Assembly (NCBI RefSeq): GCF_036345015.1
Contig: NZ_CP084098.1
Coordinates: 248,001 to 312,000, forward strand
Direction of reading: 5' to 3'
Source of the DNA: Cyanobacterium sp. Dongsha4
GTDB taxonomy: Bacteria > Cyanobacteriota > Cyanobacteriia > Cyanobacteriales > Cyanobacteriaceae
Length of the DNA stretch: 64,000 nucleotides
In this document: piece after piece, positions 9,051-13,791 of the stretch
Numbering within the stretch: position 1 is the first letter of the stretch
Layout of the letters: every line of letters begins with the position of its first letter
Translations under genes and position numbers: made by a program
The notes under the pieces: generated by a model
The model's input: the letters and a program-made list of their open reading frames with translations, nothing else
The model's database searches: none
What the model was told of the DNA's origin: nothing

Positions 9051-9758
9051 ATGGTGACAAAAACAGAATCCCCCATAACTAAAAATGAAAATCAGCATAT
9101 TATTAAATCTGAAATTTCTCCTTGGTTAATTAGGTTAGTTTATCCTTTAGCTAACAGAATAATTTTTCCTTTCTTTTTTAAGAATATCCATATTGAAGGC
9201 AAAGAGAATATCCCAAAAAGTGGGGCGGTAATCATTGCACCAACTCATCGCTCTCGGTGGGATGCTTTAATTGTGCCTTATGCCACTGGTAGAATGGCAA
9301 CAAATAGAGATCCTTTTTTTATGGTATCAGCAAACGAAATGAAAGGGTTTCAAGGTTGGTTTATTCGTCGCTTGGGGGGGTTTCCTGTTGACACGGAACG
9401 CCCCGGGTTAGAAAGTTTATATCATAGTGGGAAATTATTATCTGAAGGTAAGATGGTGGTTATTTTCCCTGAAGGAAATATTTATCGCACTGTTAATACA
9501 GTTAATCCACTGAAAAGAGGTATTGCAAAAATAGCTTTGGAAGTGGAGGCTAGTAACCCAGAAGTAGAAGTAAAAATTTTACCTGTTGCGATTAAGTATA
9601 GTGAGGTGATTCCTAGTCGTGGCTGTAGTGTTAATGTGAAAATTGGTTCTTGTTTAAGGGTTAATGAATATCTTAATGGTTCAATTAGGGAAAATAGTAT
9701 TCGTTTAACTGCAGATTTAAAGACTTCTTTACAAAATGAATTAAATTCATTATCTTAA
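9051..9758 (+). CDS. plsC: 1-acyl-sn-glycerol-3-phosphate acyltransferase
   Basis: A 235-residue PlsC-type acyltransferase that makes phosphatidic acid for membrane lipids. The HX4D catalytic motif is APTHRSRWDAL, and the substrate-binding motif is VVIFPEGNIYR with the downstream LKRGIAKIALE stretch. A hydrophobic segment near residues 28-47 would anchor it at the membrane. The start ATG lies in TCCATGGTGAC. plsC is used as a family name; cyanobacteria have several paralogues and the acyl preference cannot be read from the sequence. Confidence 0.85.
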   Translation: MVTKTESPITKNENQHIIKSEISPWLIRLVYPLANRIIFPFFFKNIHIEGKENIPKSGAVIIAPTHRSRWDALIVPYATGRMATNRDPFFMVSANEMKGFQGWFIRRLGGFPVDTERPGLESLYHSGKLLSEGKMVVIFPEGNIYRTVNTVNPLKRGIAKIALEVEASNPEVEVKILPVAIKYSEVIPSRGCSVNVKIGSCLRVNEYLNGSIRENSIRLTADLKTSLQNELNSLS

Positions 9759-12369: not shown

Positions 12370-12668
12370 GATCGAATTTTTGACTATTTAATAATTTCTT
12401 TACTATTCATCATATCTCAAAAGACTTCTATCTTTTTGAGCAAACTACCTCCCCTAAGAATAAACACTTATTGACTATATTCCTTTTTAGTTATAAAATA
12501 GCATTTAAAGTTACTTGAAATATTTGCAGTCATTCTACAAAACGTGGTGTATTTCCTTGTATTAAGTGTATTGTGTCCTGTTAGATAATGTAGGAAAGAT
12601 TGTGAGTTGATAGGTGATAAATACATAACTCATTAGACAACAAGATAAAGTTGTAGGAGTTCTAAATT
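12370..12668. other. Intergenic region between the TPR gene and the D1 variant
   Basis: This 299-base gap separates divergent genes and must contain both promoters. The D1 variant has a good ribosome site (GTAGGAGTT, 8 bases before ATG 12669). A candidate -10 hexamer is TAGATAATG near 12583, but no -35 is convincing. No frame or RNA structure was recognised. Confidence 0.4.
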
Positions 12669-13712
12669 ATGGCAAACATAGCTCAAAATAGTTCCAGTGT
12701 AAACTACGATTCTCTTTGGGATCGTTTTTGTCGATGGATTACTAGCACTAATAACCGTATTTATTTAGGATGGTTTAGTGTGTTAATGATTCCCACTGCC
12801 TTCGTAGCTGCGATCGCATTTATCATAGCCTTTATTGCCGCCCCCGGAGTAGATGTAGATGGCATTCGTGAACCTGTTATGGGTTCGCTTTTAAGTGGTA
12901 ATAATATTGCAACTGCCGCTGTTGTGCCTACTTCAGCCGCCATTGGGCTACACTTTTACCCTTTATGGGAAGCTGGTTCAATTGATGAATGGCTTTATAA
13001 TGGTGGTACTTACCAGATGATTATATTTCACTTCTTAATCGCTGTCTGGGCTTATTTAGGCAGACTTTGGGAATTGAGTGAGCGTCTTGGTATGCGCCCT
13101 TGGATTGCCATCGCATTTTCTGCCCCTGCGGCCGCTGTAACCTCAGTGTTATTAGTTTATCCCATTGGACAAGGTAGTTTTTCTCAAGGGATGCCTTTAG
13201 GAATCGTGGGGACATTTAATTTCATGATTGTGCTACAAGCAGAGCATAATATTTTAATGCACCCATTTCATATGTTAGGAGTTGCAGGAGTTTTAGGTGG
13301 TGCTTTATTGAGCGTCATGCACGGCTCATTAGTAACTTCTAGTCTAATTCGGGAAACCACAGAAGATATATCTCAGAATGAAGGTTATCAATTTGGTCAA
13401 CAGGAAATGACTTATAATCTGATAGCTAGTCATGTGGGTTATTTAGGAAGATTATTAATTCCCTCTCTTGCTTTTAATAATAGTCGTTCCGTTCATTTCC
13501 TCTTAGCGATTTTCCCCACTATTGGCATTTGGTTTGCGAGTTTAGGTATCAGTAGCGTTGCTTTTAACCTTAACGGATTTAACTTTAACCATTCTATTTT
13601 AGATAGTAACAATCATGTGATTCCTACCGATGCAGATATGATTAACCGTGCCAATTTAGGCTTTGAAGCTATGAATGCACCAAATACTCATAACTTCCCA
13701 AATTTGATGTAA
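12669..13712 (+). CDS. psbA4: Rogue (sentinel) D1 protein, photosystem II reaction centre variant lacking Mn ligands
   Basis: The 347-residue protein is clearly D1: [38 protein letters not shown] and NSRSVHF are conserved. TyrZ (Y164), the P680 histidine (H201) and the iron ligands H218 and H276 are kept. The oxygen-evolving ligands are not: D1-Asp170 is Gln173, His332 is Asn336, Glu333 is Ala337, Asp342 is Leu346, and the chain ends at residue 347 without Ala344 or a processed tail. One residue is inserted beside His252 and Ser264 is Ala268. Glu189 (E192) and His190 (H193) remain. This is the known rogue/sentinel D1 class, thought to make non-oxygen-evolving PSII in the dark in some unicellular diazotrophs. 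ChlF is less likely: D1-130 is Leu133. The symbol psbA4 follows naming in other species. Confidence 0.9.
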
Positions 13713-13745: not shown

Positions 13746-13791
13746 ATCAGACTAGGATGTTTCAAGTTTTATTCTTAGTCTGATTTTTTTA
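13746..13791 (+). terminator. Rho-independent terminator of the D1 variant gene
   Basis: A 9-base-pair stem ATCAGACTA (13746-13754) with TAGTCTGAT (13776-13784) closes a 21-base loop and is followed by six more T residues. It lies 34 bases after the stop codon. Confidence 0.75.

Follow-up and report, generated by a model that had tools for sequence, protein, structure and literature searches.

A short-chain rogue D1 protein with few manganese ligands in Cyanobacterium sp. Dongsha4 and its links to sulfide and nitrogen fixation genes

Rogue D1 proteins received their name in 2012 (Murray, cited in PMC4582080), and their role is disputed. The closest described system to the protein studied here is the group 2 D1, including PsbA4 of Cyanothece ATCC 51142, which shares with it lost manganese ligands, a C-terminus that cannot be processed and an altered QB pocket. 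Group 2 D1s have been described with Glu or Asp at position 170 (PMC4773611), whereas our protein has Gln and its chain ends at position 343; the comparison was made with group 2 as a class. ChlF (super-rogue or group 1 D1) is likewise a D1 paralogue with lost Mn ligands, but it differs in its QD motif at positions 127-128 (PMC10535343), where our protein has LG, and in the dominant H252Q replacement, since our protein keeps His252 (as His255). The low-oxygen D1' (group 3) and ordinary D1 (group 4) resemble our protein in homology, TyrZ, the P680 histidine and the iron ligands, but they carry the full Mn ligand set (PMC4773611), of which it has two of seven. The C-terminal cleavage site was described as seemingly lost in atypical D1s in a 2025 structural survey (PMC12096807), and Synechocystis 6803 with PsbA4 of Cyanothece 51142 as its sole D1 had no photosynthesis, according to earlier work related in PMC9640542. 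As for gene context, psbA genes of groups 2 and 3 were reported near sqr in 2016 (PMC5061849), and petC2 beside sqr, with induction at low oxygen, is cited in PMC11304991 (2024).

The window, i.e., the whole stretch of DNA that was analysed, comprised 64,000 nucleotides of Cyanobacterium sp. Dongsha4 (contig NZ_CP084098.1, positions 248,001 to 312,000). A complete ORF encoding a 347-residue D1 paralogue was confirmed at the position given by an earlier, sequence-only reading. The best matches of the protein in the solved-chain search were D1 chains, its score against the NCBIfam psbA model TIGR01151 was 577.3 bits, slightly below the equivalog cut-off of 596.05, and its identity to ordinary D1 was approximately 70%. 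The genome (4.32 Mb, 5 contigs) contains three other intact psbA genes, one shortened psbA and two psbD genes. The shortened psbA, of the ordinary type (contig C1, approximately 3459600-3460300), ends after about 233 matched codons and is followed by a transposase-like ORF. The features of the locus are given below in window coordinates; D1 positions follow the numbering of the ordinary D1 encoded in the same genome (offset 0), to which the protein was aligned.

12471..12499, forward strand: promoter-like TTGACT-17-TAAAAT, 10 of 12 matches, weak
12653..12659, forward strand: ribosome-binding-like GTAGGAG before the ATG, also found in the G012 orthologue
12669..13712, forward strand: rogue/sentinel-type psbA (D1), 347 aa, stop included, assigned by D1 chain matches and the TIGR01151 score
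13158..13160, forward strand: TyrZ kept, Y164 = Tyr161 (alignment to own ordinary D1)
13185..13187, forward strand: Q173 replacing Asp170 (high-affinity Mn site), Gln in five of five family members
13242..13247, forward strand: E192 and H193 (= Glu189 and His190) kept (alignment)
13407..13409, forward strand: M247 replacing Glu244 in the stromal loop (alignment)
13434..13436, forward strand: V256, one-residue insertion directly after His252 (H255), a rogue D1 marker (55/55 rogue, 0/22 ordinary)
13470..13472, forward strand: A268 replacing Ser264 in the QB pocket (alignment)
13674..13679, forward strand: N336 and A337 replacing the ligands His332 and Glu333 (alignment)
13689..13691, forward strand: H341 (= His337) kept, His in 55 of 55 rogue D1s
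13704..13712, forward strand: L346 replacing Asp342, then M347 (L343M) and the stop; chain end at position 343 (alignment)
13746..13790, forward strand: terminator-like hairpin followed by a T run just 3' of the stop, 12-pair stem, 15-nt loop

The promoter-like site was rated as weak because nine such sites were found in the region against 6.2 expected (sd 2.5), which is not clearly above chance. The aligned upstream regions of eight sequences had little in common except the ribosome-binding region, and no recognised regulatory site was found upstream of the gene by this alignment or by the promoter scan. The 88-nt stretch containing the hairpin folds at -15.1 kcal/mol, which suggests that transcription may end after the gene; the consensus terminator scan covers loops of 3-8 nt and does not list this hairpin.

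Of the seven Mn4CaO5 ligands that D1 normally provides, the protein has lost five, and Glu189 and His337 survive. Residue 344 and the C-terminal tail are absent, with no LDLA motif at the C-terminus, while His198, His118 and the iron ligands His215 and His272 are kept. The alignment agreed with all the residue calls of the sequence-only reading, which had listed TyrZ, the P680 histidine and the iron ligands as kept, Gln173, Asn336, Ala337 and Leu346 as the equivalents of Asp170, His332, Glu333 and Asp342, Ala344 and the C-terminal extension as missing (the stop follows M347), and Ser264 as replaced by Ala (A268). The insertion V256 and the E244M replacement were additional to that reading. A shifted register restoring the ligands was ruled out, as the sole gap against two solved D1 chains is the insertion near His252, and also because the five family orthologues all share Q170, A333, L342 and the lack of residue 344. 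Residue 332 in the same orthologue group is Asn in three and His in two (n = 5). The lost ligands support the further claim that PSII built with this D1 would be unable to split water.

The rogue D1 set was defined as profile matches of at least 199.9 bits in 310 genomes of the order, which gave 55 genes from 54 genomes; in the same search, ordinary D1s appear from 197.7 bits downwards, and the list of matches stops below that score. Two of the genes, in G072 and G277 (the latter split by an insertion), are incomplete at the 5' side. The one-residue insertion after His252 was present in all 55 rogue D1s and absent from the 22 ordinary D1s, each of which has the full Mn ligand set (groups 3 and 4 taken together). 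As the profile was built from insertion-bearing sequences, divergent rogues or ChlF may be missed, and the count of 55 out of 55 reflects the consistency of the group and is not proof that every rogue has the insertion. Similarly, 22 named loci were chosen by a motif that includes the insertion, and its occurrence in 15 out of 15 of them, seven partial reads having been left out, is therefore no test of the marker. In quick trees (64 or 70 rogue rows and 14 or 22 ordinary rows), rogue and ordinary D1s were placed on opposite sides of a branch with an SH-aLRT support of 99, and this split persisted when the trait columns were excluded. The root of the D1 tree is unsure because the D2 root sits on a very long branch that joins the tree among the rogues. 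The five D1s from the family of the window genome formed one group with a support of 99. The earlier assignment to the rogue/sentinel type was borne out, with the protein grouping with group 2 D1s (support 99); neither a register shift nor clustering with ordinary D1s was found in the alignments and the tree. Ordinary D1 identity was rejected because of the incomplete seven-ligand Mn set and the position outside the ordinary D1s in the tree. ChlF identity was rejected on L127, G128 and His252, a comparison made by motif. Judged from its residues and its place in the tree, the window protein is an extra-reduced subtype of group 2 (rogue/sentinel) D1.

Some members of the set were unusual in other ways. 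The D1 of G106 (C1:788630-789001) has the rogue insertion, E170 and Leu at position 61, keeps E189, H332, E333, H337, D342 and A344, and adjoins the ordinary D1s in the tree (98); it is possibly an intermediate form. The rogue D1s of G164 and G098 carry Tyr instead of His215, Phe instead of His252 and Gly instead of Glu189, so that even an iron ligand is gone.

Tyr161, His118, His190 and His198 were found in 55 of 55 rogue D1s, and His215 and His272 in 52 of 55. These kept residues and the strong constraint on the gene would fit a PSII that, with the window D1, catalyses some other light-driven reaction (as ChlF does in making chlorophyll f) or oxidises another donor such as Mn(II) or sulfide, and an unidentified enzymatic function has been suggested for PsbA4 complexes (cited in PMC9640542). 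We consider this explanation decidedly improbable for the window D1: the ChlF signature is absent at positions 127-128 and at His252, no substrate site was identified in the protein, and the lost 170 acid and residue 344 argue against Mn oxidation by this subtype.

The five family members share not only Q170 and the chain end at 343 but also the retained Glu189 and His337. Residue 170 among the 55 rogue D1s is Glu or Asp in 46, Gln in five, Ala in three and Ser in one. The acid is absent from nine of the 11 rogue chains ending at 343 (the short chains of G109 and G169 still have E170) and from none of the 44 chains that possess residue 344. The tail beyond 344 is lacking in 13 of the 55 rogue D1s, i.e., the 11 short chains together with G263 and G292, which end at 344. 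The tree label "truncated" was given to 10 genes and excludes G169, which ends at 343 with E170; these 10 genes lie on one side of a branch with a support of only 86, and the short-chain form (11 genes) probably arose more than once. The acid and non-acid states require two changes on the tree, and the pattern thus rests on one or two events and not on nine.

Comparison of the rogue psbA of the window genome with that of its sister species, G001, revealed 42 synonymous and three non-synonymous changes (dN/dS of 0.018), and the pair G004 and G007 gave a dN/dS of 0.029. The values for G012 against the window genome and G001 were 0.08-0.09, and other family pairs were saturated at synonymous sites. 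The identity to the window D1 was 99% for G001, of the same genus, 82% for G012 and 81% for G007 and G004. The open frame, the substitution pattern and the three relatives at 81-82% identity argue that the window gene is not a product of chance or decay, and a pseudogene reading was rejected on the dN/dS values. That the gene is a decaying, functionless copy is in our view highly improbable. The scattered distribution (54 of 310 genomes), the ordinary psbA already cut in the window genome and the disruptions in G001 and G277 would be expected of decay, but the intact frame, the dN/dS of 0.018-0.029, the functional residues conserved across 55 rogue D1s, the ribosome-binding site in common with G012 and the terminator-like hairpin oppose it. 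In G001, a TnpB-type element (Pfam OrfB_IS605) of approximately 1.65 kb (upstream of position 9294, minus strand) separates the promoter region of rogue psbA from its leader and lies about 45 nt ahead of the start codon. With this element ahead of its start, the G001 gene may be falling silent; G001 lacks both a nifD match and a type I SQR match, and its copy looks like one whose use is lapsing where the nif and SQR functions are gone. In G277 (L139:6818-8951), transposase-like ORFs divide the rogue psbA into two open frames, and a Rieske gene still adjoins it.

The expectation of the sequence-only reading that the genome may hold nif genes was met at the level of genes, as nifH, nifD and a large nif cluster were found (gene names beyond nifH and nifD were assigned by likeness). 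The cluster includes a 926-residue NifE-NifN-like fusion ORF (L103:16026-18806). Nitrogen fixation status was scored by a nifD match at E 1e-150, which gave 136 nif-plus genomes, 123 of them above the curated cut-off. By this measure nifD was present in 35 of the 54 rogue carriers and in 101 of the 256 non-carriers among the 310 genomes, and absent in 19 of the 54 carriers. Within the family, 14 other genomes were searched, two of which are only 63-67% complete; nifD did not exceed the cut-off in any of them, and a rogue D1 is carried by four. Nif is therefore associated with rogue D1 and is not required for it. These results bear on the view that the protein is a sentinel D1 serving nitrogen fixation, with night-time expression keeping PSII from releasing oxygen during nitrogenase activity. 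The nif genes of the window genome and the enrichment of rogue D1 with nif (Mantel-Haenszel OR of 5.0) are consistent with it, as is the element before the start codon in G001, where nif was lost or never present. It also agrees with the night-time transcription of rD1 genes in Cyanothece and Crocosphaera (cited in PMC4582080) and with the correlation of rD1 expression with nitrogenase (cited in PMC11304991). Deletion of psbA4 in Cyanothece 51142 caused faster dark charge recombination and an altered PSII titre at dawn under nitrogen-fixing conditions only (PMC9640542), a limitation that leaves room for a role in diazotrophy. On the other hand, the deletion strain grew slightly faster without added nitrogen, and psbA4 also occurs in non-diazotrophs (both PMC9640542), nifD is missing from the four other family carriers and from the 19 carriers counted above, and the dN/dS of 0.029 was obtained between two nif-minus carriers. 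We consider it unlikely that nitrogen fixation is the dedicated purpose of the protein. Of the earlier proposal that such D1s stop oxygen release in dark nitrogen fixation, the link to nif stood as an enrichment, and the general purpose was not supported, given the four nif-minus carriers in the family.

Sulfide and low-oxygen genes were also considered as partners of rogue psbA. At the window locus, none of petC2, sqr or the partner genes is found next to rogue psbA. The same genome carries ArsR, SQR, DUF302, rhodanese and SBF permease genes approximately 50 kb from the rogue psbA, and petC2 lies 446 kb from it. The SQR of the window genome aligns with the solved SQR 3SZ0 along almost its entire length (E 6.5e-89), with three cysteines kept that we take to be the catalytic ones. 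In G012, a petC-type Rieske gene is located directly upstream of rogue psbA, with a YgaP-like membrane gene beyond it, and iron-sulfur genes, HdrA-like and HdrB-like genes (the latter two below the model cut-offs) and a mitochondrial-type SQR gene are found downstream (L098:1933-8044); these downstream genes could possibly constitute a sulfur-oxidising set in a cyanobacterium. The gene order in G209 and G162 is SQR, DUF302, Rieske, rogue psbA, NifX-like, rhodanese, DUF4079 and SBF permease, several of these names being assigned by likeness to scanned relatives; G162 has two additional ORFs, one of which separates Rieske from psbA. In G209, the SQR gene contains a stop codon. A NrdG-like radical SAM gene (below the model cut-off) recurs near the SQR cluster or rogue psbA (L134:8355-8981 in the window genome itself, L137 and L140).

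A Rieske gene within 2.2 kb of rogue psbA was found in G012, G093, G162, G209 and G277, i.e., in five of the 28 genomes carrying both genes; petC2 is on another contig in 13 of the 28, and adjacency can thus be missed in fragmented assemblies. All five petC2-adjacent rogue psbA genes encode the short-chain form (five of 11 genomes, with G012 belonging to the family of the window genome). The pair was also present in the fetched slice of eight of the 22 named loci (four Pseudanabaena, three Acaryochloris MAG contigs and one Oscillatoriales MAG). Neither the petC2-rogue psbA pairing nor the short-chain/170 pattern was found in those parts of the literature available to us.

Across the 310 genomes, petC2 was present in 28 of 54 rogue carriers versus 62 of 256 others, and type I SQR in 18 of 54 versus 31 of 256. 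Matches of at least 243.5 bits and one fragment (G008, 88% over 93 residues) were counted as petC2; the scores of other PetC proteins start at 209.8 bits. We use the names petC2 and type I SQR by resemblance and following PMC11304991 and PMC5061849, and not from a tree. A test stratified by family, and not by a species tree, gave an OR of 5.0 for SQR (p 3e-4), 3.2 for petC2 (p 0.006) and 5.0 for nif (p 3e-4); it covered 206 of the 310 genomes in 12 families, with the carriers G017 and G019 falling outside. The enrichment of nif is as strong as that of SQR, which makes a nif-specific use possible where nif is present. Among nif-minus genomes, petC2 was found in 12 of 19 rogue carriers versus 22 of 155 others (p 1e-5), and SQR in six of 19 versus 11 of 155 (p 0.004). 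Among nif-plus genomes, neither link was significant (petC2, 16/35 versus 40/101, p 0.55; SQR, 12/35 versus 20/101, p 0.11). Nif, petC2 and type I SQR are all missing from seven of the 54 carriers, including G004 and G007.

The charge-separating core of the window D1 (TyrZ, the P680 histidine and the iron ligands) is kept, the 170 acid and the C-terminal carboxylate at 344 are lost, and there is no tail to process. From these features and the gene associations, we consider it probable, with moderate confidence, that the protein is a manganese-dead placeholder belonging to a toolkit for low oxygen and sulfide, of which nitrogen fixation also makes use. In darkness, low oxygen or sulfide, some of the PSII centres would contain it instead of ordinary D1, and these centres would neither assemble a Mn cluster nor release oxygen. 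The altered QB pocket (S264A, the insertion after His252 and E244M) would probably also slow plastoquinone reduction. Acting with SQR and the petC2-type Rieske protein, it would have been selected to keep water oxidation off in any situation where oxygen has to be kept low, and nitrogen fixation would be one user of this oxygen-free state and not its sole reason.

More tentatively, rogue D1s may fall into two grades. Most of them, with the 170 acid and residue 344, may still bind or oxidise some Mn, and the subtype of the window protein, without either, would be manganese-dead. It is conceivable, and we offer it as a conjecture, that this dead grade arose in a petC2-psbA-sqr module for an oxygen-free, sulfide-fed PSII/b6f chain, with its use in nitrogen fixation being secondary. 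If true, the two-grade pattern would separate D1s that possibly handle Mn from those unable to do so, and would have consequences for studies that model the origin of water oxidation on rogue D1s. The family of the window genome itself offers a natural contrast, as it holds near-identical D1s in nif-plus and nif-minus sister species and constrained orthologues in nif-minus relatives, and this contrast makes the nitrogen-fixation hypothesis testable against the low-oxygen/sulfide hypothesis.
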